Origin: Candidatus Altarchaeota archaeon
GTDB taxonomy: Archaea > Altiarchaeota > Altiarchaeia > IMC4 > QMZM01
Direction of reading: 5' to 3'
DNA: 63,295 nt
Assembly: GCA_016931955.1 (NCBI GenBank)
Contig: JAFGDV010000024.1
Location: forward strand, 1 to 63,295
Both the position numbers and the translations under genes were made by a program. The notes beneath the pieces were generated by a model that saw only the letters and a list, made by a program, of their open reading frames with translations, made no database searches and had not been told where the DNA came from. Position 1 is the stretch's first letter. Each line of letters opens with the position of its first letter. Shown piece after piece: positions 5,501 through 63,295 of the stretch.

Positions 5501-6142
5501 ATGGCTGGTGGTATAGGGGGTAACAGGATTGTGGGGGTATTGCACTTTTGTTCCTTTGGTCTGTTGAGGAGGCTTTATGATTGGGTTCTTTCTTGGGCGG
5601 ATTCGAAGTACGGTTCTGCTGCATTAGCTTTTACTGCTTTCGCTGAGTCTTCTTTTTTCCCGGTTCCTCCTGATATTCTCTTGATTGCTCTTTCTGTTTC
5701 TAAGCCTGAGAAATCTTTTTGGTATGCTTTTGTGGCGGGTTTTTTTTCTGTGTTGGGTGGGATCTTTGGTTATTTTATTGGTCTTTTTTTGTATGACGTT
5801 ATTGGTAGGTTGATTATTGAGGGTCTGGGTTATGAGCAGTATTTCCAAGTGGTTGGGCAATTGTATAGGGATAATGCTTTTCTGGCTATTTTGGGTGCTG
5901 CTTTCACGCCTATTCCTTATAAGGTTTTCACTATTGCTGCGGGTTTTTGGGATGTGGGTTTGTTTTCTCTGGTTGCTGCTTCTTTTATCGGCAGATTTAG
6001 CAGGTTTTTTGTTGTCGGTGTTTTGATTCGTTTTTTTGGTGCGCGGGTTAAGGTCTTTATTGACAGGTATTTTAACTGGCTGACTTTGCTTTTTTTTGTC
6101 TTGGTTCTTTTAGGTTATCTCTGCATAAAGTATTTCATCTAG
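5501..6142 (+). CDS. VTT-domain (DedA/YqaA-like) membrane protein
   Basis: Integral membrane protein of up to 213 aa. A hydrophobic segment with FAESSFFPVPPDILLIALS (about 45-63) is the family signature, with the conserved acidic residue and PVPPD. A later GAAFTPIPYKVFTIAAGFW (about 130-148) is the matching half. A re-entrant loop arrangement and a C-terminal membrane helix are likely. Family members are implicated in lipid scrambling and membrane homeostasis; the substrate here is unknown. ATG 5501 is only about 5 nt from the TATA-like ACTTATAAG (5491-5499). A start further in, at GTG 5531 or TTG 5540, is therefore possible and would fit a leaderless mRNA better. It converges with the toxin-antitoxin array. 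Confidence 0.8.
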   Translation: MAGGIGGNRIVGVLHFCSFGLLRRLYDWVLSWADSKYGSAALAFTAFAESSFFPVPPDILLIALSVSKPEKSFWYAFVAGFFSVLGGIFGYFIGLFLYDVIGRLIIEGLGYEQYFQVVGQLYRDNAFLAILGAAFTPIPYKVFTIAAGFWDVGLFSLVAASFIGRFSRFFVVGVLIRFFGARVKVFIDRYFNWLTLLFFVLVLLGYLCIKYFI

Positions 6143-6159
6143 AATCATCATATCTTCTT

Positions 6160-6177
6160 CGCCCAGAATTCGCATTC
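6160..6177 (-). repeat. V4R-tail repeat copy A
   Basis: On the minus strand it reads GAATGCGAATTCTGGGCG, followed by AAGAAGATATGATG. The core equals the codons near the 3' end of the intact V4R gene at 8552. This copy closes the HEPN-MNT cassette, 17 nt after the HEPN stop codon. The bases beyond the core (CATCATAT on the plus strand) also match copy B. Confidence 0.85.
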
Positions 6178-6193: not shown

Positions 6194-6625
6194 TTATCTC
6201 TGTTTTTTGATTTCTTCTTCTATTGTTTTGAGGAATTTTTCGGCTGTTTTGATTGCGTGTTTGGCTTCGTATTCGGATATTGTGCCTGCTTGGTCGTATA
6301 TTGTGGCGTGTCTTTTTCGTCTTAGTCGGTCGAATGCTGTTATTTCTTTCCGGTATTTGTCGCCTAATGTGGTTTCGGTGAATTTTATCACTGCTAGGTG
6401 TTGTTTTTCGCCTGTTGGTCTGTATCCTTTGGAGAACATGAGGGCTCTTGCTGCCTGTAGGATTGAGTTGTATGCTATTGTGAATGCCCAGTCGATGCTG
6501 TTTTCGTATGTCTTTTTTGCTGTTTCGAGGTCTCTTTTCGCTAGTGTGAGTGAGTTTTCTATTTGTTGTTTGTTGGCTGGTAGTTTTTGTATCATGCCTT
6601 TTCGTTCTAGGTCTTCTGTGTTCAT
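6194..6625 (-). CDS. HEPN-domain toxin of a HEPN-MNT system
   Basis: Predicted toxin of 143 aa, mostly helical. The RLRRKRHATIY stretch near residue 105 contains the R-x4-6-H motif of HEPN ribonucleases (RRKRH), so RNA cleavage is plausible. Its start overlaps the stop of the nucleotidyltransferase gene by 4 nt, the usual arrangement in HEPN-MNT pairs. In these pairs the MNT antitoxin silences the toxin by adding nucleotides to a Tyr near the HEPN motif, and the Tyr of ATIYDQ is well placed for this. It ends just before repeat copy A. Confidence 0.85.
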   Translation of the reverse strand: MNTEDLERKGMIQKLPANKQQIENSLTLAKRDLETAKKTYENSIDWAFTIAYNSILQAARALMFSKGYRPTGEKQHLAVIKFTETTLGDKYRKEITAFDRLRRKRHATIYDQAGTISEYEAKHAIKTAEKFLKTIEEEIKKQR

Positions 6626-7173
6626 ATTAGTTTTATCTGTTTTTCTTTGAGTATGTTGGTTATGTAGGGGTCTTTTTGTTGTTTTCTTGTTTCGAATTCT
6701 TTTTTGCTGTAGGTGGAGTAGTTTATTTCTCTGTTTAGTTGGTCTTCGAGGCGTCTTATGATCTCAGATAGTCTGTCTTGGTCTGCGTCGCCTATGATCA
6801 TGAGGTCTATGTCGCTTTTTTTTGTTTCTTGGTTTTTTGCGTATGAGCCGTAGATGAATGCCTGCTCTATGTTGCCTATTTTTTTGAGTTCTTTTTTTAT
6901 TTCGTCGCCTATTGCGGTGGTTTTTAGTATTATTTTTTTGAGTTCTTCGTGTATTGGGTTTTTTTTGTCTGCTGTATAGTATCTGATGTTTCCTTGTTTT
7001 CTGCTTTTTATTATTCCTGCTTTTTCGAGGTTTTTGAGCTCTCTTCTGACTGCGTTTGTGTTTTCTTTGAGTTTTCTGGCTGTGTCTCTTAGGTAGTATT
7101 CGTTTTCTGGGTTGGTGAGGAATAGTGTGAGCAGTTTTACTCGTGTTTTGGAGGTTATGATGTGTTCTATCAT
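6622..7173 (-). CDS. HTH-MNT nucleotidyltransferase antitoxin
   Basis: Antitoxin partner of the HEPN protein, 183 aa. The N-terminal ArsR-like winged helix (about 1-75: SKTRVKLLTLFLTNPENEYY, then LRDTARKLKENTNAVRREL) should allow DNA binding and autoregulation. The C-terminal minimal nucleotidyltransferase has the GS signature (YGSYAKN, G109-S110) and SDIDLMI (120-126) with the metal-binding aspartates. The longer frame from 7257 begins with GFSECEFWAKK, which is not part of this protein but repeat copy B read through. The start is set at ATG 7173, about 25 nt after TTTTTATAC (7195-7203); ATG 7182 is the alternative. Confidence 0.85.
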   Translation of the reverse strand: MIEHIITSKTRVKLLTLFLTNPENEYYLRDTARKLKENTNAVRRELKNLEKAGIIKSRKQGNIRYYTADKKNPIHEELKKIILKTTAIGDEIKKELKKIGNIEQAFIYGSYAKNQETKKSDIDLMIIGDADQDRLSEIIRRLEDQLNREINYSTYSKKEFETRKQQKDPYITNILKEKQIKLI

Positions 7174-7214
7174 TGTATACATATTGTACTCAATAGTATA
7201 AAAATTGTATACAT
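7172..7214 (-). promoter_or_regulatory. Promoter and probable operator of the MNT-HEPN operon
   Basis: ATTGTATACAT occurs twice in direct orientation (7172-7182 and 7204-7214) and each contains the palindrome GTATAC. The two copies flank a TATA-like box (TTTTTATAC on the minus strand, 7195-7203) and the proximal copy overlaps the start codon. This placement suits autorepression by the HTH-MNT protein. Confidence 0.6.
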
Positions 7215-7225
7215 CATATTTTTTT

Positions 7226-7293
7226 GCCCAGAATTCGCATTCACTGAATCCTAACATCAGAATAGGGGCTTACTTGAATGCCAGCGTCTTCAC
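7226..7293 (-). pseudogene. Fused 3' tails of a FIST gene and a V4R gene (repeat copy B)
   Basis: On the minus strand this reads GTG AAG ACG CTG GCA TTC AAG TAA (VKTLAFK-stop, 7270-7293). That is a near copy of the end of the FIST gene at 9839 (VKALASK-stop). After 17 nt comes a sequence encoding GFSECEFWAKK (about 7220-7252), the end of the V4R gene at 8552, with 31 of 33 nt the same. The FIST-then-V4R order matches the intact pair, but the V4R body is missing. The PIN stop codon lies inside the FIST-tail copy (TGA at 7290-7292), so the junction is sharp. Confidence 0.8.
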
Positions 7294-7703
7294 TGTTTTT
7301 CTGTGATTTTCAGGAATTCTGTGCTTGTGAGTATCTTTATTCCATCGTATTCTTTCAGGTTCAGCAGGTGTTTGTCTCCGGATACTATGTAGTCTGCTTT
7401 GCCTGCTTTTGCGCATTCTAGGATTTTGTTGTCTGCTGGGTCTTCTTTTATGGCGGTTATCTTTTTTTCAGGAGTCGTCAGATGTGATATTGCTAGTAGT
7501 AAGTGGATCATTTCGTTTATCTGGTTTGTGTTGTATCTGAATTTGGGTTTTATCATCACTTTGCGGAATTCGTCTAGGAGGTCTTCTGAAGTTGAGAGTG
7601 TTATTTCTTGGTTCACTGCTTTTTCCAGTATCCGCCATTCTTTTCCGCCGTATTTTATGAACGCTGATATGTGTATGTTGGTGTCGAGGACTGCTTTGAT
7701 CAT
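7290..7703 (-). CDS. PIN-domain toxin (VapC-like, PIN_3 type)
   Basis: Predicted Mg2+-dependent ribonuclease toxin of 137 aa. The PIN acidic residues are visible: D7 in AVLDTNIHISA, an Glu in EDLLDEFRKVM (about 40-50), and the EDPADNKILECA (about 87-98) and YIVSGDKHLL (about 105) blocks that complete the active site. It overlaps the AbrB gene by 4 nt, the classic toxin-antitoxin coupling. Its stop codon falls exactly at the junction with the FIST-tail remnant, so the natural 3' end may have been redefined by the recombination. Confidence 0.88.
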   Translation of the reverse strand: MIKAVLDTNIHISAFIKYGGKEWRILEKAVNQEITLSTSEDLLDEFRKVMIKPKFRYNTNQINEMIHLLLAISHLTTPEKKITAIKEDPADNKILECAKAGKADYIVSGDKHLLNLKEYDGIKILTSTEFLKITEKQ

Positions 7704-7954
7704 CTTTTGGATCGTGTTTCTCTTATCGCATCTTCTATGTCTTCATCAGTTATGTCTTTTCTTGCTGTTTTCTGTGTTAGTTTTTTGAATTCCTCAGTCG
7801 TCGGCATATCCACTTTTTTGAGTATTACTGTATCGTCTTCACCGAATACTGCGAATCGTGTGCCTTTTTTGATTCCCAGTTTTTTCCTTATCTGTTGTGG
7901 TATCACTACCTGTCCTTTTTGGGATATTTTGGTCAGCTCTATGTTCATCTTCAA
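7700..7954 (-). CDS. AbrB/SpoVT-type antitoxin
   Basis: Antitoxin of 84 aa. Residues about 5-50 form a swapped-hairpin AbrB DNA-binding domain (KISQKGQVVIPQQIRKKLGI, then KKGTRFAVFGEDDTVILKK). The charged C-terminal tail (about 52-84) should wrap and inhibit the PIN toxin. The start is ATG 7954 (MKMNIEL); ATG 7948 is also possible. An inverted repeat directly upstream is a likely autoregulatory operator. Confidence 0.88.
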   Translation of the reverse strand: MKMNIELTKISQKGQVVIPQQIRKKLGIKKGTRFAVFGEDDTVILKKVDMPTTEEFKKLTQKTARKDITDEDIEDAIRETRSKR

Positions 7955-7984: not shown

Positions 7985-8035
7985 TTTATCTATTCACTAT
8001 GCAAGAATAAAAATAGCCCCCTTTTATATTTTTTT

Positions 8036-8053
8036 CGCCCAGAATTCGCATTC
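8036..8053 (-). repeat. V4R-tail repeat copy C
   Basis: Minus strand GAATGCGAATTCTGGGCG followed by AAAAAAATATAAAAGG. It lies 13 nt after the HicA stop codon and just before the promoter region of the AbrB-PIN cassette. The A-rich flank could double as a TATA box (AATATAAAAG, about 8021-8030). Confidence 0.85.
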
Positions 8054-8065
8054 AGATTGTGGGGT

Positions 8066-8296
8066 TTATTTAAGTAGTTTTATTAGGTCTTGTTCTGAGA
8101 TTTTGGCTTGTTTTAGTATTCCTTTTATTGTCCCTATCTTTAGTTCGCCGTGGAGGGGTACTGTGCAGCCGGTTTTCCCTGATTCTGTTTCTTTGGTTAG
8201 AATGACGTGGCTGCCTTTCTGTCTTTTGGGTTTGTAGCCGAGTTTTGTGAGGGCTTTAATAAGCTCCTGCCCTGAGAGCTTTCTTAGTTTTAGCAT
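8066..8296 (-). CDS. hicA: HicA mRNA-interferase toxin
   Basis: Small toxin of 76 aa with the double-stranded-RNA-binding-like HicA fold. The catalytic His is in QKGSHVILTKE (H30), after the typical SGQELIKALTKLGY. The VPLHGELKIGTIKGILKQA segment is the usual second half. The gene overlaps hicB by 41 nt, in the less common antitoxin-first order. Its stop is 13 nt from repeat copy C. Confidence 0.92.
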   Translation of the reverse strand: MLKLRKLSGQELIKALTKLGYKPKRQKGSHVILTKETESGKTGCTVPLHGELKIGTIKGILKQAKISEQDLIKLLK

Positions 8297-8501
8297 GCTG
8301 TGTTACCTCGAATACTGTCATTATCGGCTTTTCTTCTGCTTCTTCGGCGGGGAATTCTTCTAGGTATAGTTCTGTGGCTTCTTTTAGGTTGGCTACGGCT
8401 TCGTCTACTGTTTTTCCTTGGCTTACTGTGCCGACTTCGGGGCATTCTGCCACGTACATGTCTTCTTCTTTGTGGAGTATTGCAGTGTATGTTTTTGTCA
8501 T
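8256..8501 (-). CDS. hicB: HicB antitoxin
   Basis: Antitoxin of 81 aa with the partial RNase-H-like HicB fold (YTAILHKEEDMYVAECPEVG, then TVSQGKTVDEAVANLKEAT). No separate DNA-binding domain is evident at the C-terminus. The start at ATG 8501 matches the family N-terminus; the longer frame from 8555 runs back into the V4R stop region. CTAAATAAC about 20 nt upstream is a weak TATA candidate. The cassette begins about 50 nt after the V4R stop codon. Confidence 0.9.
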   Translation of the reverse strand: MTKTYTAILHKEEDMYVAECPEVGTVSQGKTVDEAVANLKEATELYLEEFPAEEAEEKPIMTVFEVTQHAKTKKALRAGAY

Positions 8502-8551: not shown

Positions 8552-9805
8552 TCACAGTTTTTTAGCCCAGAATTCGCATTCACTGAACCCGGATGCGAGG
8601 CATTTCATCTCGTTCACATCCCATTTCTGTTCTGTTGCCTTGTTTAGTGTGCCTTCTATTATTCCTGCCAGGAAGATGCACAGGTTTGTGTGTATGTTGT
8701 TGACTCCTGCTGCATAAACTGATTCCTGCATTTTCAGTATTATTCTGTCCGTTTTTTTCTCGCTTCGCAGTATCCCCGCCTTCAGGTACAAAAAGAGATC
8801 CTCCAAATAGCTCAGCGCCGGATCTAATCCCCTCAACTCCGCCTTCTCCGCGATCCGTTCACCACATATCTTGCCCGCATACTTAGACATCACCGCGTGT
8901 CCTGGGGAGAGCGACAACAGATAGTAGTTCAGTACTTGGTCTGCAATAATGTAGAAGTCGTCTGTTAGTTCTTTGGAGCGTATTGGTGTTCTTTCGATGG
9001 AGTTTGTAATAATTTCGTTGAGTATGTTGTCGAGTTCTTCTTTGGTTAGTTGGTCTATTTCTGGTTTCTCTTCTTTTTCGTGTAAATATATCTCTATTTC
9101 GTTGTATTCGTCGCCTTTAGCTTGACATTTAGTTTCTCTACCATCCCAGATACCTCCAAAAAGCGCCTCCGCCTCCCCACAAAGGGCTCCAACCTCCATA
9201 AAGCACACTGAGCGTAAAGCATGAACGATGGAGGAGGGACATTCTCTTATGTGATGACTCACTCTTTTTGTAGTTCGGTCAACTCCTCCTGATTGTATGA
9301 AACCCCCACCTGCGTTCTTCCATCCTATCTTGTGTTTCTTTTGGTAGACCTCGTTCTCGAATATCTTCCAGAACAAACCAGTTTTACTTAACTTTTCAAT
9401 AAGTACGGAGAAACCCACGATATCTCCTAAGGCTGCGTTTGCCATATAATATCCAATCAACTTACTTATAGCATAAAGCTCATAGATTTGATTGGGATTT
9501 AGGTGAGGAAAAGAGAATTTTCGTAGATTAAGAAGATTTATATGCTCAAAGTCTCCGAGCTGTTTTCGTACTGGCTCTACCTCTTTGAATGCAACCTTGC
9601 CCAGGTTTTGGACAATCTTGAAGTTTTGAAATATGACTTTCCCTCCTTGTTGTCTTTCCCAGAGGTATCGTGTTCGGTCTAGTGCGTAGCCTGATATTAT
9701 TTGGGGGGAATCAAAGCTTATTGAGGTGTCTAGTCTTGTAGCGCAGTGGGGGCAGTATGTCCAGTTTTTCTCTGTTTTTGTGTTGCAGGCTGGGCATTTG
9801 GGCAT
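8552..9805 (-). CDS. Zinc-ribbon protein with two V4R-like domains
   Basis: Probable small-molecule sensor of 417 aa. The N-terminal zinc ribbon has C4, C7, C18 and C21 (CPAC...CPHC). Two V4R-type modules follow (about 85-245 and 260-414). The first ends GALCGEAEALFGGIW...CQAKGDEYNEIEI and the second ends CLASGFSECEFWAKKL. V4R domains bind hydrocarbons or other small ligands in archaeal and bacterial regulators. The gene lies 33 nt behind the FIST gene, so the two probably form a sensory operon. Its last codons are the source of the repeat that bounds three toxin-antitoxin cassettes. There is no obvious output domain, so the partner is unknown. Confidence 0.75.
   Translation of the reverse strand: MPKCPACNTKTEKNWTYCPHCATRLDTSISFDSPQIISGYALDRTRYLWERQQGGKVIFQNFKIVQNLGKVAFKEVEPVRKQLGDFEHINLLNLRKFSFPHLNPNQIYELYAISKLIGYYMANAALGDIVGFSVLIEKLSKTGLFWKIFENEVYQKKHKIGWKNAGGGFIQSGGVDRTTKRVSHHIRECPSSIVHALRSVCFMEVGALCGEAEALFGGIWDGRETKCQAKGDEYNEIEIYLHEKEEKPEIDQLTKEELDNILNEIITNSIERTPIRSKELTDDFYIIADQVLNYYLLSLSPGHAVMSKYAGKICGERIAEKAELRGLDPALSYLEDLFLYLKAGILRSEKKTDRIILKMQESVYAAGVNNIHTNLCIFLAGIIEGTLNKATEQKWDVNEMKCLASGFSECEFWAKKL
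8565..8581 (-). repeat. V4R-tail repeat copy D (in the intact gene)
   Basis: Minus strand GAATGCGAATTCTGGGC inside the last codons of the V4R gene (ECEFWA). This is the presumed parent of copies A, B and C. Copy D to C is about 530 bp (HicAB), C to B about 810 bp (AbrB-PIN), and B to A about 1070 bp (MNT-HEPN). Confidence 0.85.
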
Positions 9806-9838
9806 AGTATAGAATGTGAGGGAGATGATAAATAAGGC

Positions 9839-11023
9839 TTACTTGGATGCTAGCGCCTTCACCATGGCTCCGTGGACGACGTTCTGCTCCAGGCCTTGGT
9901 AGGGTAGTGTGGCTCCGAATTCCCCGAACACGAATGAGAAGAGGAAGGCTGGTTTTATTTTTTTCAGCTTTTCTTTTATGTTGTCTAAATCCGCATATAT
10001 CCAGAATATTGCAGCGCATGCTATTATGAGCATTGAGTTTTTGTCTTCTGAGTATTCTGCGAGTTGATCGAATGCTTTTGTGCCTTCTTCGATGGTGTGT
10101 TTTACTCTTTTGAGTGTTGTTCCTTCTGGCTTATAGTTTTGTATGCGGACGTATCTTCTGCCTTCTTCGTTGAGTTCTAGTATGAGTGCTGCTTCGACTA
10201 TGTTTTCTCTGTTTTTTGCACCTATTAGGTTTATTCCTAGGCTTAGAAGCCCTTCTCGTAGTGTTCCGCTGGCGTTGGCTAGTGCCTTCACTACTTTTAA
10301 TATGTCTGATCTGTTTAGTATGTAGTTTGTTATCATGTTGAGGAAGTAGGGTCTGATGTGCTGTATTTTTGAGTACTCTTCTACTGCATCTCTTCCGTTT
10401 ATCTCGTAGATGTTGTACTCATCTGCCTTTGTTATCACGAATTCATCTTGTGATGCTTCATCTATTCTACAGGGTGAGTAGATTTTGAGTTCTGTTTTTT
10501 GTCCTTTTATGGCTGTTAAGGTTATATGGTCGTTGTATATGCCTTCTTTGGCGGCGACAATAGCGGGTGGTGATGATGCCCCTCCTATAATTTGCAGTCT
10601 TGGGTGGTTGTTCTGTATTCTTCTCAGGATTCCGTCGATCATGACGTTTTGTTTGTAGTTGTTTGCGCTGTGTACTAGGCATAGATCGTATTCATCTAGT
10701 TTTGGTGTTATTTTTTCGGCTGTTTTCTCTGGGTTCTGTAGGTTTATTTTCTCATGTAACACATTGACTTCGAAGTCTCCGCATAGTACTGCTATCGCCA
10801 CAGCATCTTCATAGTAGCCTTCGTTTGTCGCTGATCCGCTTACTCTCATGCCGGCGAACGGCGTCTTCAGGTTGTCAACCAGATACTGGAGGAAGTCCAG
10901 TAATGCTACCTCATCTTTCAGGGAGGCATGCACCAATGCCACCTTCGCCTTAGGGCAGCCGTCGATGAAATCCACCGCCTTAGCAGAATCCAGTTCACCC
11001 CGTCTCTGAACGAGAAGACGCAT
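9839..11023 (-). CDS. FIST-domain sensory protein
   Basis: Cytosolic ligand-sensing protein of 394 aa with FIST-N (about 25-200) followed by FIST-C (about 205-390). Supporting segments are ALVHASLKDEVALLDFLQYL, AGMRVSGSATNEGYYEDAV, PRLQIIGGASSPPA and, near the end, AFLFSFVFGEFGATLPYQGL. FIST domains usually feed signalling proteins; here the V4R gene follows directly. ATG 11023 (MRLLVQRRGELDS) is chosen; the longer frame to 11086 adds a hydrophobic leader not seen in FIST proteins. A TATA-like CATAAATACG lies at about 11066-11075 on the minus strand. The last codons (VKALASK) are duplicated in the remnant at 7270-7293. Confidence 0.78.
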   Translation of the reverse strand: MRLLVQRRGELDSAKAVDFIDGCPKAKVALVHASLKDEVALLDFLQYLVDNLKTPFAGMRVSGSATNEGYYEDAVAIAVLCGDFEVNVLHEKINLQNPEKTAEKITPKLDEYDLCLVHSANNYKQNVMIDGILRRIQNNHPRLQIIGGASSPPAIVAAKEGIYNDHITLTAIKGQKTELKIYSPCRIDEASQDEFVITKADEYNIYEINGRDAVEEYSKIQHIRPYFLNMITNYILNRSDILKVVKALANASGTLREGLLSLGINLIGAKNRENIVEAALILELNEEGRRYVRIQNYKPEGTTLKRVKHTIEEGTKAFDQLAEYSEDKNSMLIIACAAIFWIYADLDNIKEKLKKIKPAFLFSFVFGEFGATLPYQGLEQNVVHGAMVKALASK

Positions 11024-11101
11024 ATCCACAAGAAAAATATAAGAAAAAAAGAGGATAAAACACGTATTTATGCCCCAACAACCCAAATACTAAATGATAA
11101 G

Positions 11102-53900: not shown

Positions 53901-56900
53901 CATCTCCACTACTGCAGGGAATCTAACAGACTACCAGGTGAAGATAAATCTGAACTCCTCCAACGTCGGCGCAGGGTTTAACTGGACCAGAGACGAAAAC
54001 GCGACAAGATTCAAGTACTACAACACAAGCTCAGGGAAAGAAACAGGATGCTCTCACTGGATAGAGTCTTGGAACTCTTCTTCAGAGGAAGCAACCATCT
54101 GGGTAAAAGTCCCCTTCCTGGAGAACAACACCAACACAACAATATACATGAACTATGGAAATCCAGATGCAATTTATAACAACACCCAAGGAGGGAATGA
54201 CATATTCCTGTTCTTTGATGATTTTGAGGGTGACATCTTAGATACGAACAAATGGAGTGAGATAGGCAGTGGAGGGTCGTATTCTGTCTCCGATTCAATA
54301 CTAACCGTAACTGGCGGAGCGAGTGGTTGGGAGACAATAATAGGTAAAACACGATACGCCATGCCTAAAGAATTCGGGTATCGTGCAAAGATGACAGAAA
54401 CAACCGTAACGAATATAGTGATAGATGATAGAGATGCTCAAGGGAATTTCCAAGGTTTAGGATATGATTGGGCTAAATGGTCATATTGGGATGAGAAAAA
54501 CTACTCATGTGGGCATGATGGCAGCGAAACCGGTGATGCGAGAACTTCGGATTTAAGCAACTTTACTTTGCTGAAATTAGTATGGACTAGCACAGCCGTT
54601 AAATTTTATGAGGATGGTGTGCTCAAAAAAACATTAACCACAAATGTGCCCCAAGACACTTGCGCCCCTCTTTTTGAAGGATATTTCAACTCGTCAAAAG
54701 TATACATCGATTGGGTCTTCGTGCGAGAATATACCTCCATCGAACCAACAATCTACTTTGGCTCAGAAGAATCCCCTTCAAACATACAGATTACGAAAGA
54801 AGGGATAAGCTACATCCGATACCGATCAAACGATACTCTCGGAAATTTGGAGGACACAAAGAACCAGACAATAAAGATCGACTACACACCAGCGCAGATA
54901 ACTATAGTTAATCCAGAGAATGACACGAATCTCTCCTCTGAAACAACTTGGACATGGATCAACGTCAGCACAGACGAAAACGCAGTCTGCAAATATAATC
55001 TAACAAACTCAAACTTCGACTACGCTTCACAGGGAACAACGTTCACGAATACAAGTGGGATGGCGCATTCATTCAACTACTCCGGGTTAGCGGATGGGCA
55101 GACTTATACATTATACTATAAATGCAACGACTCCACAGCAGGAAACATCAATCCAAGCTCAGTGATGCACACCTTCGGAGTCAACAAAACTGTTACTTTT
55201 CACATCGACCTGAACTCCCCGGACAACGAAACAGCGACGGATGACTCAACACCTGACTTCAACTTCACAGTCTCTGGTTCAAAATCCCTCTACGTCTGTG
55301 AACTGTTCATAAATGACTCAAGCTACGGCAAAACAGACTTCATAAACGTCGGACACATAGACGACGGGGGATGGGTGGAGAGCGTGTGGGGAGATGGAAC
55401 ATACATATATTCAGCAGACTATGCTGGACTGCGGGCATACACATTCAACGGAACAGATTTTAATAAAACAGGATACATAGACGACGAAGAAAATGAATTG
55501 GGGGTGTGGGGAGATGGGACATACATATTCCTAGCAAATCAGGATGGCGGGTTGAGGGCCTACACATTCAATGGAACCAATTTCACCAACGTAGGACACA
55601 TAGATGATGGAGGGAATGGAGTCGGAGTGTGGGGAGACGAGACATATATTTATCTGGCAAACTCTGGTGATGGACTTAGAGCCTACACATTCAACGGGAC
55701 AAACTTCACCAACGTCGGCTGGATAGACGACGGAGGGAACGGGGTCGATGTGTGGGGCGATGGAACATACATATACCTAGCAAACTATGCTGACGGATTG
55801 AGAGCCTACACATTCAACGGAACAAACTTCTCTAATGTTGGGCACATAGACGACGGAGACGAGGGATATGGAATAGGGGTGTGGGGAGATGGGACATACA
55901 TATATCTAGGAAACTACGGTGATGGTCTTAGAGCTTACACATTCAACGGGAGCAATTTCACAAATGTTGGACACATATACGACGGCGGATTCGGACAGGG
56001 GGTGTGGGGGGATGGGACGTACATATATCTGGCAAACGAGTTCGACGGGCTTAGAGCCTACACATTCAACGGAACAAACTTCTCTAATGTTGGGCACATA
56101 GACGACGGCGGAGTTGGTTGGGGAGTGTGGGGAGACGGAACATACATATATCTAGCAAACCATGATGATGGTCTGAGAGCATACTCATTTACTCCTTCTG
56201 CTTTAAACAACACACCAACAACAATCACGGCAAACTTAAATCTATCAGATGGAGTTTATAACTGGTACATAAACTGCACAGCAAATGGCGCTACGAACCA
56301 ATCAGAGATAGGAGAAATCACAATAGATGCAACCCCGTCGACTACCAACGCCTCAGCAGTCAAAAACGATTCCACAACATACACCTTCGACACGTGGACG
56401 AATTCAAGCTACGTGAACATCACACTGAGCTGTGACGACGGATTAGGGATAGGATGCGACACAACACAATACTGCACAGACACGACAAACACCTGCACTC
56501 CCTCATGGTTCAACAGCTCATGGCTCTACCGACAACCAATATACATCTCAAATACGGCAGGAAATCTAACAGATTACCAAGTCAAGATAGAGCTGACTTC
56601 TGCGAATGCTGGCTCCCACTGGAACTGGACAAACAACGGATCAGATATACGGTTTACATACTACAACATAACCGGCGGAACCGAAACAGAATGCCTCCAC
56701 TGGATTGAATCATGGAATTCTACCTCAGAGACGGCAACAATCTGGGTGAAAATACCATTCATAGAAAACAACACAGACACCATAGTAAACATGTACTACG
56801 GAAACACCGGCGCAGCCTACAACAACACACAAGGCGGAAACAACACCTTCCTCTTATTCGACGACTTTGATTCGCTTACTGGTTGGAGCGGCGACACCGC

Positions 56901-59900
56901 TAACTTCGACACCAGCAACGGATACCTTTTAGCCACCAACAACACAGACAGCTTCCACAAAATCTACAAACCATTCACTGAAAATGTAGCCATATGGGAG
57001 ATAAAAGCACGCATCAACGGCACCGACTCAGCAGACCAAATCTGGAGACTCTACCCCTTCTACAACAATACCCTCTCCTATTGGGATGTCAATCTAGCAG
57101 AACCGGGGGGAGGGAACGTAATCGCACTTGAAAAAAATGGAGGAGCAACTGGTAGTAGCCCTGGTATACAAGACACATACTGGCATGATATAAAAGTTAC
57201 CCGAAGTTCTTCAGCTGACTGGAGGGTATACGTTGATGGAACAGGAGTAATAAGCACGACAGACGATATGTGGCCAACTGCGACCTACATTGGGATTGAG
57301 TACAAGCAGCTAACTTCAAATGATTACATCGCATGGGATACTCTCCGAGTACGCAAATACGCCAGCCCAGAACCAAGCGTGAGCATCGGAGGAGAAGGAA
57401 GCTCAACAACAATACAGGTAACAACCGAGGGGACCTCGTACATCCGATACCATTCAAACGACTCACTAGGAAACCTGGAGGACACAAAGAACCAGACGAT
57501 AAAAATCGACACTACTGCTCCAACGATAAACTTTGTCTCTCCAACCTCCTCAGGCAACCTCTCACAGAACTGGATCGCAGCCAACGTAACCGCACTAGAC
57601 GGTGGAGTAGGACTTGACACAATAAAACTGACACTATGGAACTCAACAGGAGGAATAGTACAAAGCAACACATCGCAGACTTCCCCGCTGTTCGTAAACC
57701 TCACTTCCCTGTTGGAAGGAACCTACTACCTGAACGCCACAGCAAACGACACCTTTGAACACACAAGCACAACAGAGACAAATACAATAACATTAGACAC
57801 AACCAAACCAACCATAATACTTCAGTCGCCAGAGAACATAACCTACAATACAACACTGATAAACCTGAACGTCTCCGCAGACGACATAATAGACACCTGG
57901 TGGTACTCCCTCAACAGCGGAACAAACATAACCTTCACACCCAACACCACAATAATTGCAGAATATGGCTCAAACCATCTGATAGTCTACGCCAACGACA
58001 CAGCAGGAAACGAGAACTCATCAGAGATATACTTTAGCACAAGCAACTACCTAGACGACTGCTCAATACTAAACGAACCAGGAACAACCTACTACCTACA
58101 AAAAGACATAATAAACTCCACCAAAACAACGTGCATAAACATCACAGCAAACAACATAATACTAGAAGGACAAGGACACACAGTAGACGGAATAAACACC
58201 ACCTCAACCTATGGAATATACATACTTCGACCAAGCCAACAAACAACAAACATAACAGTGAAAAACTTAGAGATAACAGACTGGTACAATGGTGTTGCAA
58301 ATTACTACGCTAACAATAACACATTCTACAATATAACATCCGAACTAAATTACTATGGTGTGTACTTTGGTTATACTAATTACACCAACTTAACTGAGAG
58401 TACCATCTCAAATAGTCTCATCGGCTTATGGATGCTCTATTCAAGTTTTAATACGGTCTATAATAGCACATTCACGTCATGTTCCTACGAAGGAGTGCGC
58501 ATAGGCGCCGACTCAACGTATAACATATTCTCAAACATGACCGTAAGCAATGGTCTGAACAGAGGAATCTTTATCGAATATGCTCAGAACAATACAATAA
58601 AAGACTCACGAATAGAAAACAATGCAGGTAGTGGAATTTACGTGTATTGGGCTGGATTCAGTCCTACAGAAAACAACAAAATCTATAACAATCTCTTCAA
58701 CAACACAAACAACTCCATCATAAATATGTTCACAGCCTACATAAACAACTGGAACACCACAAACCAGACTGGAACAAGAATCTATTCCTCTGGAACAAAC
58801 ATTGGAGGAAACTACTGGACCAATGCTACAGGAACAGGATACTCAGATACCTGCAACGACACAAACGAGGACGGATTCTGCGACGATCCCTACACATTAG
58901 CAGCAAACAACACAGACTACCTACCACTAAGCAACAAATACAAAGCCGACTGGGTCGAGGTCACAACATGCAGAAACCTCAACGAATCCGGGAAAACATA
59001 CCAACTCAGCCAAAACGTCTCCTCTCCAGGAACCTGCTTCACCATCCAAGCAGACAACATCACCTTAAACTGCTTAGGGTACACAATAAATTATTCTCAG
59101 TCCTCTGTAGGTTATGCAGTAAACAATACGGGCTACAACTATACGAAAATAAAGAACTGCAACATAGTGCAAGGAAACACCAGCCAATCCAACTCCTACG
59201 GCATCCGCTTCAATAAAACAATAAATGGGTCAATAGAAAACAACACCATCCAGACTTCGGGCAGTTCCAGCTGCTATGGAATCTATATCCTTAACTCGAA
59301 TAACACAAGGTTTTATAAAAACAATATAACGACGACCGGCTACTACGGCTACGGAATACGAATAGACTCTTCCACAAACGCTAACTTCACAGACAACATC
59401 ATATCAACTTCAGACTTCTATGCGAGAGGCATATACCTCCTCAACTCCTCAGACAACACAATCTACAACAACACCATCTCCACCGCAAGCAACGCCTGGG
59501 CCTTCGCCGTGGGAATGTACGCATCCAGCAAAAACACGCTAAAGGAAAATAAATTCACTACAACTCATGCCCAAAGCATAGGAGTCCTAGTCCCGGCAGA
59601 ATACAACATAAGCGAGTCTTACTTCAACCACTCAATAGACTCAAGCAACCTCGCACACGGAAAACCCATCCTCTACGTATTCAAAAACGACTCCGTTACC
59701 CTGGAAAACCTCAACAACACCTACGGCCTGATCTATGTGACATCCTCAAGGAATGCGACAATAAGGAATATAACAGTAGCCGGCTTAGACGGGATATACT
59801 TGGCTAACACATCAGATTCAACCATAGCCAACTGCACACTCAAAAACACAACAAGCAAAGGCATCGGCGTATATTATAGCTCATCCAACAACAGAATAGA

Positions 59901-62900
59901 GAACAACACAATATCAACCAACTCCCCGGAAGGCTACCCAATAGAAGTGGGCAGAGCCTCCAACAACATAATCCAAAACAACATCCTCACAACCTACGCA
60001 TCCTGGGACATAGGACTCAACCTCTGGGGGCCGGGCTCAAACAACAACATTACAAACAACAAAATAACAACTCACGCAGGTTGGAGAGCTGAAGGTGTCT
60101 ATATAGCACTTAACGCAAACAACAACACATTTTACAACATCACAGTACAGACTTCAACATGCTCCTACTGTTACGGCATAGACTTCGACTCAGTCTCAGG
60201 CAACAGATTCATCAACTCAAACATAAACGCCGGCACAAGCTACGACATTTACATAAGAGGAACAGAAGACTACATAAACTACATCATAAACGGCACATTC
60301 AATCAATCGGATATAGGATTCGAAAACTCCTCAACAACAAACAAAATAGAAGTACAATGGTACCTAGACGTCTACGTAAACGACACCTTGAGTAATCCCA
60401 TAGATCAAAGTGACGTAACAGGCTGGATGGATAACAGCAGCCAAGCCTTCTTCAACCAAACCAATGCAACAGGATACATCACAAGACAGACTCTGACGGA
60501 ATACCTCCAGAATGCATCACAGGTCTATCCAACGAATGTCACATACTACACGAACTACACAATAAACGCAACCAAAGCAGGTTACACAGAAGAAACCAAA
60601 CAAGTAAACCTAACAGCAAGCAAAAGCATTTACCTGACATTATCCAGAGAAAATAATCCACCCAATAAACCAACACTAAACAGCCCAGACAACGCCAGCT
60701 ACGTAAACATGAACTTTGTTCTCCTGAACTGGACCTGCACGGACCCGGACGGAGACAACATGACGGCGTACATATACGGAGACAACAGCACAGCGACCAC
60801 TCTTATAAACACCACCACAGGCTGCGTGAACGGCTCATCCTACACATTCAACCGGACTGGATTAGGAGACGACATATATTATTGGAAGATCACGTGCAAT
60901 GACTCCTCCTTAGCGAACACATCTGACACGTATGAGTTCATGACGGGCTGCAACCCACCCAAATCCGGAAACTGGAACATCAACAGCACACTCAACTGCC
61001 AGGACATAACCAGAATATCAGAAGTCGACTTAGTGATAGGCAACAACGGAGGCGTAACCTTCAATAACGTTAATCTGACACTACAAAAAGTGACAGTCCA
61101 AGCAGGAGGCGTACTAAGATTCCAGAACTCCAAAAATTCTGTAACACACAACAACAACTGGACTATCAGCGGAACAACCTATGTCAACCATACGACCCAC
61201 CACATAAACACAACAACCAACGGCGCAATAGGCATAACAGTAACCTCCGCCGGAGCCTTCTATATTTACAACAACTCAAACATCACCAACGGAGAAGGAG
61301 TAGGAGGCAACAGCACAGCACACTTCTTCTTCCAAATAGATCCCGGAGCGACATTCCAAATGAACGATTCCGTACTAGAAGAATGCGGTTTTGCCGGAGA
61401 AGAGAACCAGAAAGGCTTATTCATACAAACAGACAATGTCTGGATAGGAAACAACACAATAACAAACAACTACATAGGAATCTACTTGAATGCATCAGAC
61501 AACAACACAATAAAGGATAACACAATAAAACAAAACCAATACGGAATCCTCCTCTATTCCTCAGCAAACAACACCATATACAACAACCTACTAAACAACA
61601 CAAACAATTTTTATTTCGCTGGAACAAACTACACAAACTATTGGAACACCACCAACCAGACAGGGACGAGGGTATATTCTTCTGGAACAAACATTGGCGG
61701 CAACTATTGGACCAACGCCACTGGAACCGGTTACTCAGACACCTGCAACGACACAAGCTATGACGGATTCTGCGACGACCCATACATTTTAGCAACAAGC
61801 AACAGAGACTATCTGCCACTAAGCAACAAATACACGGCAACTGCCTTCCACATCGACCTGAACTCCCCACCAAACCAGACGACTACAAACGACAACACAC
61901 CAGACTTCAACTTCAATGTTACTGGAATAACAATCACTTACACCTGCGAATTGTTTATAAATGGCACTGGTTATGAAAACAGATGGTTCTTGGATTCAAG
62001 CATAGTATCAGGGCTGGGGGATGTCGGCGGGCGTTCAAAGCCAGAAGTATATCAGAAGGACGGGGTATGGCATCTTATCTCTGGGGAAATGGATGGTGTG
62101 TTCAACGGCTACCAGTGGAATGGGATACAATGGGTATCGAATTCAAGCATAGTATCTGGGTTGGGTAGTATCGGCTGGAATTCAGACCCGACAGTATACC
62201 AGAAGGATGGGGTATGGCATCTTATCTCTGGGGAAAGTGATGGTGTGTTCAACGGCTACCAATGGAACGGAACACAATGGGTATCAAATTCCAGCATAGT
62301 ATCCGGGCTGGCTAATGTTGGCGGGGAGGGGTATTCGTCCCCAACAGTATTCCAAAAGGATGGGACATGGTATCTGATAGCTGGGGAATGGGATGGTGTA
62401 TTCAACGGCTACCAGTGGAACGGAACACAATGGGTATCGAATTCCAGCATAGTATCCGGGCTGGGGGATGTCGGCACGCATTCAATCCCAGAGGTATATC
62501 AGAAGGACGGGATATGGCATCTTATCTCGGGGGAACAAGATGGTGTGTTCAACGGCTACCAGTGGAATGGGATACAATGGGTATCGAATTCAAGCATAGT
62601 ATCCGGGCTGATTAAGGTCACCACGATTTCAGCCCCAGCAGTATACCAAAAGGAGGGGGTATGGCATCTGATAACAGGAGAACAGTATGGTACGTTCTAC
62701 GGATACCATTGGGATGCTCTGAACAACACACCAACAACGATAACTGCAAACCCTGCGCTGTCAGACGGAACATACTACTGGTACATAAACTGCTCTGCTT
62801 CCGGATTTACGAACCAGTCGAAGATCAGAGAGATAACAATCGATGCGACGCCTCCGATAACAAACGCAACCGCATTAATATCCAACGGCTCAGCTTACGT

Positions 62901-63295
62901 CTTCGACACATGGACCAACTTCACCTACGTGAACGTCACACTAAGCTGCGACGACGGCACAGGAACAGGATGCAATACAACACAATACTGCACAGACACA
63001 AACAACACATGCTCACCCAATATAACATACACAACACATATACAGATCACCCAAGAAGAAACCAGCTACATCCGATTCAGGAGCAACGACACTCTTGGAA
63101 ACCTAGAGGATGTGAAGAGCGAGACAATAAGGATCGACACCCAACCACCAGAAATAAACTTTGTAGAACCAACAACAGAGGCAGGTAACCACTCACAGGA
63201 TTGGATCTCGGCGAATGTGACCGTAGTAGATCATAACCTGGACACGATAAACCTTACGCTGTGGAACTCCACCGGAAGGATAGTACAAAGCAACA
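47917..63295 (+). CDS. Giant modular surface protein, at least 5126 codons (3' end outside window)
   Basis: One frame stays open from a stop at 47884-47886 to the window end. Start is GTG 47917 (VYGLKQGLIYAVVLGVFFLS), with TTG 47926 as alternative; a signal peptide is evident. Order of parts: three about 100-aa beta repeats (48000-48850), a macroglobulin-like domain (49200-49450), beta domains, a pectate-lyase-like beta-helix (51350-52370), Ig-like and CHB_HEX_C-like modules, DUF2341 plus LamG-like units (53890-54770, 56510-57400), a seven-repeat propeller (55345-56200), NosD-like beta-helices (58050-58940, 58960-60400, 61200-61830) and a five-repeat array (61980-62710). N-x-S/T sites are extremely frequent. 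It is probably a glycosylated adhesin. All short ORFs in other frames here are shadows. Confidence 0.85.
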   Translation, partial: MYGLKQGLIYAVVLGVFFLSVGFSFSQLSDPENISFSVSTDKEIYFLDEIVRVSVSAPGNSSTNLSILDPQGGIYSTFKENLGNFTHLYSPSSIGDYSVHAHFSLLNISSNASAFFKVIPFVETNPLENASLWTDKPTYYLNEIIRISVSAPKNTTTNLTIRNPTGSLYSTLKELIGSFTHLFFPEFSGNHSVRAFFSLQNWSSNSSVSFSVLSPAIENATNESEVPENPPVSPLDLASLSTDKVVYQLDETVRISLSAPENTSTNLTIQNPLGGLYSSLKEKLGSFTHLYLPEFIGDYLVFAELSLHNETRDLNTSFQVVAENVSKTNISESLFNLKAMKKYFNANKNPEFILYSKKKPEKEKIKAIVYYGGQETDIQAEVEEMQDGNISIKILKKRAFRAGLYTLQVQVDEDHTIEREFSWGLVSLNTRKSIYAPGEMAEFIIVVLDSEGHSVCNAELYLSVTDPENKETMYSTSDGTISPSQECGIYYANYSTEIEGNHTVEITALVSGMEVNFSTHFLVREEYGFDIIRTAESKIDPTQQEWFDVSVGIESFIGGDALTVEESVPAEFEVLTDADIQEEGDTKILTWNKELIDGKTTVTYSYSVPEIWPYLYTLGPLEINSNFSEARPWYIAVDPSYPATPTASNDNEVTETGNTFVTKKTLTVTKNGESWLKTEHELATSNAARATELKIVSQSNGAITCTNSSTTVYPSYTTYYCELDISSLSDGSQSFNLQLRRTSASAATAYNRNWRIYLEVIPSIVTLKTHGNSSYSGIDKFFSRQQTIFVEANVTASDGSNMTDATVTANFTVGGSFEKILTLSHYSGSIYRGNWTTNSTQTVGVYNISVYANNSDGNTTGSNSFHLYSGENVSAYRMDWNDDGSNESVMENRHLIAVFNETDNTDGLILYLEQKDSNVGYTFGKIYDPNSIGRGEVTTTNMKEIRIYDFSFSQEGENLASVDLNIKTTVNDPPPSNPDKVTEKEISRAESTGVDGGDRGLASEPFSGINSGPVFGERTSSIGSEQMSPTISSIYVEPLKVAPGDFMHVSAEVSDGYEIESVTAYMGGIEIIELRLLNGSVYRGIWGGDWLVHDTENREYTTTVTATNALGFSSSADVGWSDPPNVVQIHYRWRNDDNGTSENDYLYVNATTGNDSTAELNNPDKPWKTINESINYVKNNLSPLQKPTIIEIQDSATYTEGIRLAGITTSSTNRLTIRGAKDQMPTWKNDNSNILFCDYDSTNSYGALDIAVSYVTIERISFTGTKNHGVKLCWNNVHNITIRNCIFHDMTISTGNYNHNSVGVYGVAPDSQVYNNVFYNLVYSINFWGNGPVKLRNNIFSVNPCSSEVEMAFVNYNAYSNNHPDSNYNIFQLNTGYLAVGSWNTPTYYTTLADWQACSITPAPDQNSTSGDPKYVTAGTDFHLKSVYGHWTSSGWVNDSESSSGIDAGVPFNIGFEYTYYDKEAEDNGDRVNIGAYGNTDQASLSGNYTGYWNEYKEDGTWKAAEDTLVHNQSKNEGIRLRFSIRNTGTSADNYTYRLQVAARGDFYSCENVTSGYFSDVPTTSDGCGSAVACITNATWFEDGAPTISQLSTPSSLTFVRGGMVEDSSNQTDKITLNQDTFTEIEYNFQFTDNASNATTYCFRVVNGGVGALDGYSKVATITTTELTTSFNLTVTMRTEDVDYLVYRLHNFDSSIDDISDVWSDIAGTLGSSVSDDRYHLENGTDALVSSLTAEQWNDYTASNYSLIYDNSATGDSVNDNVIAWIRFNETENISFQDTGLWNSSSEGLRIRYNTSSASATDEVNYILAFTTGGYDTIQQWMSTVEGGSFPTVNFMASPPGVYLNSPQNQAVTNDTTPDFSFNVVGSESTYNCTLYLNDTNKGNNASTQNNTPTTITSTALSDGTYSWYVNCTATGFAEQSKIREITIDTTAPTTTATAIISNGSSYTFDTWTNSSYVNITLNCSDSGSGCDTTMYCTDTTNTCEPYKNFKQEINISTTAGNLTDYQVKINLNSSNVGAGFNWTRDENATRFKYYNTSSGKETGCSHWIESWNSSSEEATIWVKVPFLENNTNTTIYMNYGNPDAIYNNTQGGNDIFLFFDDFEGDILDTNKWSEIGSGGSYSVSDSILTVTGGASGWETIIGKTRYAMPKEFGYRAKMTETTVTNIVIDDRDAQGNFQGLGYDWAKWSYWDEKNYSCGHDGSETGDARTSDLSNFTLLKLVWTSTAVKFYEDGVLKKTLTTNVPQDTCAPLFEGYFNSSKVYIDWVFVREYTSIEPTIYFGSEESPSNIQITKEGISYIRYRSNDTLGNLEDTKNQTIKIDYTPAQITIVNPENDTNLSSETTWTWINVSTDENAVCKYNLTNSNFDYASQGTTFTNTSGMAHSFNYSGLADGQTYTLYYKCNDSTAGNINPSSVMHTFGVNKTVTFHIDLNSPDNETATDDSTPDFNFTVSGSKSLYVCELFINDSSYGKTDFINVGHIDDGGWVESVWGDGTYIYSADYAGLRAYTFNGTDFNKTGYIDDEENELGVWGDGTYIFLANQDGGLRAYTFNGTNFTNVGHIDDGGNGVGVWGDETYIYLANSGDGLRAYTFNGTNFTNVGWIDDGGNGVDVWGDGTYIYLANYADGLRAYTFNGTNFSNVGHIDDGDEGYGIGVWGDGTYIYLGNYGDGLRAYTFNGSNFTNVGHIYDGGFGQGVWGDGTYIYLANEFDGLRAYTFNGTNFSNVGHIDDGGVGWGVWGDGTYIYLANHDDGLRAYSFTPSALNNTPTTITANLNLSDGVYNWYINCTANGATNQSEIGEITIDATPSTTNASAVKNDSTTYTFDTWTNSSYVNITLSCDDGLGIGCDTTQYCTDTTNTCTPSWFNSSWLYRQPIYISNTAGNLTDYQVKIELTSANAGSHWNWTNNGSDIRFTYYNITGGTETECLHWIESWNSTSETATIWVKIPFIENNTDTIVNMYYGNTGAAYNNTQGGNNTFLLFDDFDSLTGWSGDTANFDTSNGYLLATNNTDSFHKIYKPFTENVAIWEIKARINGTDSADQIWRLYPFYNNTLSYWDVNLAEPGGGNVIALEKNGGATGSSPGIQDTYWHDIKVTRSSSADWRVYVDGTGVISTTDDMWPTATYIGIEYKQLTSNDYIAWDTLRVRKYASPEPSVSIGGEGSSTTIQVTTEGTSYIRYHSNDSLGNLEDTKNQTIKIDTTAPTINFVSPTSSGNLSQNWIAANVTALDGGVGLDTIKLTLWNSTGGIVQSNTSQTSPLFVNLTSLLEGTYYLNATANDTFEHTSTTETNTITLDTTKPTIILQSPENITYNTTLINLNVSADDIIDTWWYSLNSGTNITFTPNTTIIAEYGSNHLIVYANDTAGNENSSEIYFSTSNYLDDCSILNEPGTTYYLQKDIINSTKTTCINITANNIILEGQGHTVDGINTTSTYGIYILRPSQQTTNITVKNLEITDWYNGVANYYANNNTFYNITSELNYYGVYFGYTNYTNLTESTISNSLIGLWMLYSSFNTVYNSTFTSCSYEGVRIGADSTYNIFSNMTVSNGLNRGIFIEYAQNNTIKDSRIENNAGSGIYVYWAGFSPTENNKIYNNLFNNTNNSIINMFTAYINNWNTTNQTGTRIYSSGTNIGGNYWTNATGTGYSDTCNDTNEDGFCDDPYTLAANNTDYLPLSNKYKADWVEVTTCRNLNESGKTYQLSQNVSSPGTCFTIQADNITLNCLGYTINYSQSSVGYAVNNTGYNYTKIKNCNIVQGNTSQSNSYGIRFNKTINGSIENNTIQTSGSSSCYGIYILNSNNTRFYKNNITTTGYYGYGIRIDSSTNANFTDNIISTSDFYARGIYLLNSSDNTIYNNTISTASNAWAFAVGMYASSKNTLKENKFTTTHAQSIGVLVPAEYNISESYFNHSIDSSNLAHGKPILYVFKNDSVTLENLNNTYGLIYVTSSRNATIRNITVAGLDGIYLANTSDSTIANCTLKNTTSKGIGVYYSSSNNRIENNTISTNSPEGYPIEVGRASNNIIQNNILTTYASWDIGLNLWGPGSNNNITNNKITTHAGWRAEGVYIALNANNNTFYNITVQTSTCSYCYGIDFDSVSGNRFINSNINAGTSYDIYIRGTEDYINYIINGTFNQSDIGFENSSTTNKIEVQWYLDVYVNDTLSNPIDQSDVTGWMDNSSQAFFNQTNATGYITRQTLTEYLQNASQVYPTNVTYYTNYTINATKAGYTEETKQVNLTASKSIYLTLSRENNPPNKPTLNSPDNASYVNMNFVLLNWTCTDPDGDNMTAYIYGDNSTATTLINTTTGCVNGSSYTFNRTGLGDDIYYWKITCNDSSLANTSDTYEFMTGCNPPKSGNWNINSTLNCQDITRISEVDLVIGNNGGVTFNNVNLTLQKVTVQAGGVLRFQNSKNSVTHNNNWTISGTTYVNHTTHHINTTTNGAIGITVTSAGAFYIYNNSNITNGEGVGGNSTAHFFFQIDPGATFQMNDSVLEECGFAGEENQKGLFIQTDNVWIGNNTITNNYIGIYLNASDNNTIKDNTIKQNQYGILLYSSANNTIYNNLLNNTNNFYFAGTNYTNYWNTTNQTGTRVYSSGTNIGGNYWTNATGTGYSDTCNDTSYDGFCDDPYILATSNRDYLPLSNKYTATAFHIDLNSPPNQTTTNDNTPDFNFNVTGITITYTCELFINGTGYENRWFLDSSIVSGLGDVGGRSKPEVYQKDGVWHLISGEMDGVFNGYQWNGIQWVSNSSIVSGLGSIGWNSDPTVYQKDGVWHLISGESDGVFNGYQWNGTQWVSNSSIVSGLANVGGEGYSSPTVFQKDGTWYLIAGEWDGVFNGYQWNGTQWVSNSSIVSGLGDVGTHSIPEVYQKDGIWHLISGEQDGVFNGYQWNGIQWVSNSSIVSGLIKVTTISAPAVYQKEGVWHLITGEQYGTFYGYHWDALNNTPTTITANPALSDGTYYWYINCSASGFTNQSKIREITIDATPPITNATALISNGSAYVFDTWTNFTYVNVTLSCDDGTGTGCNTTQYCTDTNNTCSPNITYTTHIQITQEETSYIRFRSNDTLGNLEDVKSETIRIDTQPPEINFVEPTTEAGNHSQDWISANVTVVDHNLDTINLTLWNSTGRIVQSN
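48001..48843 (+). repeat. Three N-terminal repeats of the giant protein
   Basis: Units of about 100 aa begin with STDKEIYFLDEIVRVSVSAP, WTDKPTYYLNEIIRISVSAP and STDKVVYQLDETVRISLSAP. Each continues with TNL(S/T)I-P-G-(I/L)YS, G-FTHL and a final strand. They resemble bacterial macroglobulin-type MG domains in tandem. The second and third are the most alike. Confidence 0.85.
51337..52371 (+). other. First beta-helix domain of the giant protein
   Basis: Translated segment YLYVNATTGNDSTAELNNPD then KPWKTINESINYV is the start of a DUF1565/pectate-lyase-like right-handed beta-helix. Repeated rungs (HNITIRNCIFHDM, SQVYNNVFYNLVYSI, VKLRNNIFSVN) follow and it ends with GDPKYVTAGTDFHLKS and NIGAYG. 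This is the classical layout of secreted polysaccharide-binding or cleaving proteins. Catalytic residues were not identified. Confidence 0.7.
55345..56196 (+). repeat. Seven tandem repeats, propeller-like, inserted in an Ig-like module
   Basis: Seven units of about 40 aa: NVGHIDDGG...VWGDGTYIYLAN then GLRAYTFNGTNF. The number seven and the strand pattern fit a seven-bladed beta-propeller of LVIVD type. The array interrupts an Ig-like module between CELFINDSSYGK and LNNTPTTITAN. DNA identity between units is high (GTGTGGGGAGATGG and ACATTCAACGG recur). Confidence 0.85.
58050..60400 (+). other. NosD-like beta-helix region of the giant protein
   Basis: Two consecutive domains start CSILNEPGTTYYLQKDI...NIILEGQGHTVDG and TCRNLNESGKTYQLSQNVSS. 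Asn-rich rungs of 20-24 aa (NNTFYNI, NNTIKDS, NNKIYNN) follow. The first ends with IYSSGTNIGGNYWTNATGTG then YSDTCNDTNEDGFCDDPYTL. That ending recurs almost word for word at about 61640-61830. Asn, Thr and Ser make up much of the sequence. Confidence 0.75.
61984..62712 (+). repeat. Five tandem near-identical repeats inserted in an Ig-like module
   Basis: Five units of about 49 aa: SSIVSGLGDVGG...VYQKDGVWHLISGE then DGVFNGYQWNGIQWVSN. The DNA of the units is nearly identical over long runs, implying recent duplication. The array lies between CELFINGTGYE and LNNTPTTITAN, the same position of the same module as the seven-repeat array. Confidence 0.85.

Follow-up and report, generated by a model that had tools for sequence, protein, structure and literature searches.

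Behind a PIN toxin gene in the window (the whole analysed stretch of 63,295 nucleotides from a Candidatus Altiarchaeota genome), the minus strand carries the tail of a FIST-domain gene followed by the tail of a V4R gene, and the question is how two gene ends came to stand there. The segment, 7219-7293, consists of a FIST tail reading VKTLAFK and a stop (7270..7293, GTGAAGACGCTGGCATTCAAGTAA), a spacer, and an orphan V4R tail reading GFSECEFWAKK (copy B, 7219..7251; GGATTCAGTGAATGCGAATTCTGGGCAAAAAA from 7251 to 7219), in which a one-base indel leaves the AKKI-stop ending one base short. Both tails had been predicted at this place, with a spacer of 17 nt that measures 18 nt (7269-7252). Their order is also, as predicted, that of the intact minus-strand genes, the FIST gene (9839..11086; Pfam FIST N domain, tail VKALASK and stop) and the V4R gene (8552..9805; zinc ribbon and Pfam V4R), which is the host of the repeated 3′ tail. 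The PIN protein (7703-7290, minus strand) ends in ...ITEKQ, and its TGA stop codon at 7292-7290 lies inside GTGAAGACGCTGGCATTCAAGTAA, i.e., it is supplied by the FIST-tail copy, in line with the original prediction.

The two matches in copy B are not due to chance. The FIST-tail copy agrees with the end of the intact FIST gene (9836-9862) at 24/27 nt, a score reached by none of 300 dinucleotide shuffles with the whole window as target and by none of 3000 with the FIST end alone. Over 33 nt, the V4R part is 94% identical to 8558-8590 (23 exact), and it includes the 17-mer core GCCCAGAATTCGCATTC, which occurs exactly four times (6161, 7226, 8037 and 8565), with 0.13 occurrences expected even at three mismatches. 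In the stitched genome the FIST tail is repeated in copy B only. The FIST protein of a genome from the same genus (G001) ends in VKTLAFK-QE and a stop, and is closer to copy B in protein than is the FIST of the window.

An array of V4R tails and toxin–antitoxin modules

The four cores belong to four V4R tails in the orientation of the V4R gene, and only the one at 8565 lies inside the intact gene, as its functional tail (copy D, 8552..8590, GFSECEFWAKKL and stop). Each interval between neighbouring cores holds one toxin–antitoxin (TA) module on the minus strand, recognised by Pfam domains. The first, between 8565 and 8037, is HicB (8501-8256, HicB-like) with HicA (8296-8066), spanning 8066..8501. 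The second, between 8037 and 7226, is an AbrB/MazE-type antitoxin (7954-7700) with the PIN toxin, spanning 7290..7954. The third, between 7226 and 6161, is an MNT nucleotidyltransferase (7176-6622) with a HEPN toxin (6625-6194), spanning 6194..7176. The distance from the end of a TA operon to the next core is 12, 47 or 16 nt. Besides copy B, the orphan tails are copy C (8024..8056, minus strand), which encodes SECEFWAKKI with its own TAA stop, and the outermost copy A (6148..6177, minus strand), which encodes ECEFWAKKI with a TGA stop. The original prediction covered a part of this array; copies A and C are V4R tails too, and TA modules border all copies. After the core, the gene copy continues GCT AAA AAA CTG TGA (AKKL and stop), and the orphan tails continue GCG AAA AAA ATA TAA, GCA AAA AA- ATA TGA and GCG AAG AAG ATA TGA, reading AKKI, AKKI (one base short) and AKKI, then a stop. 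These three are the only isolated V4R tails found in the stitched genome. Copy A adjoins a convergent membrane-protein gene and is probably the displaced original tail of the V4R gene.

With a probability of roughly 0.5, the segment 7219-7293 is read as the boundary between two TA cassettes that were stacked onto the V4R gene at its 3′ end. Copy B would then be the end of the AbrB/PIN cassette, recording an earlier FIST/V4R junction. Its double tail most likely stems from a cassette end that was formed at the FIST/V4R junction of another lineage and carried in, as we infer from the arrangement. Elsewhere in the window, the region 55300-63200 has many internal direct repeats, where it encodes a repetitive beta-propeller-like protein whose frames are fragmented.

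Recurrence of the layout elsewhere in the genome

A scan of the genome (1.55 Mb, assembled from stitched stretches) for direct repeats of which one copy falls on the 3′ end of a gene recovered the V4R array. The arrangement of gene, TA module and stray tail recurs at several genes, once more as a clear tail array. This second array belongs to a beta-propeller gene (C23:15514-17604), the tail of which occurs five times (15546, 14767, 13992, 13263 and 11520). The modules among these tails are mixed in orientation: two are of the MNT-HepT kind, another is an MNT whose HepT is broken, and HicBA is present together with MNT/HEPN. The tail of an MTHFR-family gene (C23:70682-71569) is found again at 72230, across MNT and a broken HepT; that of an AEC-type transporter (C24:3834-4739) at 6338, across AbiEi/AbiEii; and that of a DUF2341 protein (C38:3575-4981) at 5769, across an AbrB antitoxin and a broken PIN. 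The original prediction of an integration through gene ends is supported in a broader form, with three TA modules among four V4R tails and the same layout at other loci. Further modules are flanked by repeats which are not clearly gene 3′ tails: those at C23:18-21.6 kb (ParE-like toxin, AbiE, MNT/HEPN), C39:8159/9076, C31:20515/22359 and the Fic locus of C35. Where a case is clear, the repeat mostly corresponds to the neighbouring gene's own 3′ tail. The cassettes are 0.5–1.7 kb long, and only TA genes were found between the repeats; no integrase was found inside them, the single tyrosine recombinase of the genome being on another contig. Paired toxin and antitoxin domains were confirmed with Pfam (HEPN, HepT, NTP_transf_2, PIN, MazE/AbrB, HicA, HicB, AbiEi and AbiEii), and on these domains the modules would be classed as type II, HEPN-MNT or type IV TA modules.

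The association was quantified by comparing the 300-nt flanks of each module. Non-trivial direct repeats with a score of at least 15 flank 16 of 30 TA intervals, one array being counted under two overlapping definitions, as against 3 of 600 control intervals, and the three positive controls are tandem paralogs or an ATPase locus. The TA list was partly seeded from flanked loci, hence an independent count was based on PF01909: of its 12 hits, nine were regarded as short MNT genes that stand alone, and repeat-flanked modules contain eight of the nine. Other local repeats of the genome are not TA modules and comprise paralogous kinases, DUF4143-like ATPases, beta-propellers and a 17-mer of contig C28. 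The last is a dispersed element of 17–18 nt, AGTTAGGCACTACAT(GA), at the ends of an operon (stretch L008, positions 9210, 9341 and 12945). Repeats of 38–43 nt accompany a run of DUF4143-like ATPase genes (L131:3467, 8035 and 9915; contig C23, 59-66 kb), and these are possibly another type of mobile module with the same scars.

The stray tails are mostly in frame and end in their own stop codon. The pairs of gene and stray tail are EAITPL/EGIVPL, LYIPLLFTIL/LYIPLLFTIL and AKKL/AKKI, with GKKKT/GKT/GKNKH and others in the array. In five aligned tail pairs, 14 of the 19 changed codons are synonymous and 16 of the 25 substitutions fall on third positions (P about 0.11 against 0.5). Such changes fit the tails of homologous genes from diverged lineages. 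The evidence is moderate, since a constrained gene beside a drifting copy also yields some third-position excess and exact seeds favour identical cores; as the pairs were found through such seeds, ascertainment explains part of the contrast between identical cores and diverged arms. With identical cores and mostly synonymous neighbouring differences, the repeat copies are compatible with both drift and foreign tails.

A stronger point comes from the tandem MNT-HepT modules of the beta-propeller array (C23, stretch L154:13973-15640). At either end, about 100 nt are nearly the same in the two modules, with sharp transitions to a body that has roughly 55-68% identity over most of its length. The near-identical part at the start comprises the host tail and the leader, and that at the end the HepT 3′ end and the host tail. 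This pattern is expected from crossover and conversion at the module ends, not from independent insertion.

Decay is seen in three modules, in which the toxin is broken by internal stops or frameshifts and the MNT or AbrB partner is intact: HepT at C23:13461 (L154:13461-13643), HepT at C23:71566 (L198:6566-6908) and PIN at C38:5253-5740 (L165:5253-5740), the last judged by eye from the reading frames. Such breakage is consistent with the loss of an addictive element.

Possible routes of entry into a gene tail

The mode of cassette entry is inferred from the anatomy of the loci. The explanation given about even odds is that TA cassettes bring along the tail of a host gene, recombine with the resident copy of it, spare the gene and stack. 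The TA module would travel as a small DNA bearing the homologous host-gene tail from another strain, probably as a circle formed between the flanking tail repeats. Entry would require one crossover within the matching tail, by which the gene body would acquire the incoming tail, and the resident one would be displaced to the far side. Arrays would arise from repeated entries or from unequal crossing-over between the tails of different strains, and stacking on one tail would be a natural outcome of homology-driven entry. Against such a crossover stand the 17-nt core, which is short for homologous recombination, the indel in copy B, and the flanked modules lacking clear gene-tail repeats (C23:18-21.6 kb, C39, C31 and C35); neither a donor nor a circle was seen.

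The main rival, to which odds of about two to one against are given, is the de novo insertion of TA modules at gene ends with a long duplication of the target (17-100 nt), after which unequal crossing-over between the repeats would enlarge the arrays and the copies would drift. It would account for the direct repeats on either side of the modules as copies of the target, and the anatomy and repeat lengths equal those of RM systems (PMC3874152, PMC3031569). The bias toward 3′ ends would follow as well, since a gene remains intact only where the duplicated part is its 3′ end. However, such duplication requires repeated independent hits within about 20 nt, at both the V4R and the beta-propeller gene, and it leaves the near-identical HepT 3′ ends on diverged modules unexplained. 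The in-frame stray tails, their differing stops and the mostly synonymous changes fit homologous tails better.

Site-specific integration, in which a tyrosine recombinase supplied in trans would act at an attachment site in the V4R 3′ end and cassettes would bring a substitute tail, is improbable. It would agree with the identical 17-nt core, the single cassette orientation in the window and the substitute 3′ tails, but the target tails are wholly different between loci, the cassettes have no integrase in a genome with one tyrosine recombinase, and the C23 array is mixed in orientation. Very improbable is the decay of an old FIST-V4R duplication that lost its body and left both tails, the first of the two readings in the original prediction: the tails do lie close together in operon order, but copies A and C are V4R tails without a FIST tail, the genome contains no second FIST of the same family, the tail pattern is also present at unrelated genes, and in G001 the FIST gene directly abuts a thermosome gene (with Hsp20, an HTH gene and an aspartokinase beyond) and has neither a V4R gene nor a TA module beside it. 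Copy B is best read as a cassette end with both tails, rather than as a decayed FIST-V4R duplicate.

Comparison with known systems and with relatives

Insertion of RM systems with long target duplication was reportedly described by Nobusato in 2000 and Furuta in 2010. Integrative elements that enter gene 3′ ends carry a substitute tail, and the displaced tail is found at the far end of the element. The TA loci resemble these elements in both tails and differ from them in the lack of an integrase, the many unrelated target genes, the absence of a fixed target sequence and the small cassettes of 0.5–1.7 kb.

Inserted RM systems show target duplications that are long, about 100 bp, and variable (PMC3874152), and such repeats can drive amplification (PMC3031569). 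In RM systems and in the TA loci alike, a small addictive module that lacks a transposase sits between direct repeats, which vary in length (on the order of 100 bp) and may allow tandem growth. The present loci depart from RM insertions in that they concern an archaeon and its TA modules, and in that the repeat is mostly the 3′ tail of a host gene. The copies look as diverged homologous tails would, and a single gene carries a stack of three to four modules. Archaeal integrons possess attC sites and integrases (PMC9668308), and integron or CALIN arrays likewise consist of short, repeat-separated gene cassettes, TA operons included (PMC9668308). In contrast, the repeats of the present loci are gene-specific coding tails that vary by locus and do not look like a shared folded attC; one array is of mixed orientation, and no IntI integrase was found nearby. 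The vapBC genes of Sulfolobus, mostly flanked by IS remnants (PMC3718332), are mobile archaeal TA modules as well; in Sulfolobus islandicus the flanks are degenerate IS elements, and here they are gene tails. The literature searched describes target duplication by RM systems, and no report of host-gene tails duplicated around TA modules was found in it. The pattern may best be classed as a variant of RM-type insertion.

The movement and fixation of chromosomal TA modules are an open question, and reviews call the modules mobile, usually crediting known mobile elements (PMC2654758, PMC3874152). In the single genome considered here, roughly every second TA interval bears a readable insertion scar, usually a neighbour-gene tail. 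Such a scar is a simple signature that can be searched for in any genome, and it accounts for the sparing of host genes at insertion and for the stacking of TA islands. The layout suggests a route for the spread of selfish TA modules without a visible recombinase. A recombinase-free cassette system, in which tail-carrying circles would move between strains and species, enter the matching tail, leave the gene functional and stack into TA islands, is proposed only tentatively, at less than even odds.

About 482 kb of relatives contained five TA genes and no flanked TA module, and no two strains were found that show, for one cassette, both the donor and the empty site. A DedA-like neighbour tried as an empty-site marker has no ortholog across the family. 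Among 61 genomes searched with one mismatch allowed, the core occurs five times in the own genome and once in each of two others. Its three matches on viral contigs all fall in one unrelated phage protein. A V4R scan of genome contigs returned a single orphan tail, which belongs to an Altiarchaeota MAG. G002 has an orphan V4R tail of the same subfamily between glycyl-tRNA synthetase and a ScpA-like gene, adjoining a weak MazE-like antitoxin; in stretch L049 (7466-7579), from another genus, the orphan V4R tail covers about 37 codons and abuts the stop of a ScpA-like gene beside a MazE-like ORF. In G016, a gene 3′ tail recurs 426 nt downstream (L052:6046 and 6472; 122 nt, 84%), with no TA called between. 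In G009 the FIST and V4R genes are convergent with overlapping ends; the convergent pair at L051:700-900 has a stop overlap of about 8 nt, as against the tandem order in the window. A tandem FIST pair is present in a relative at L127:18-2354.
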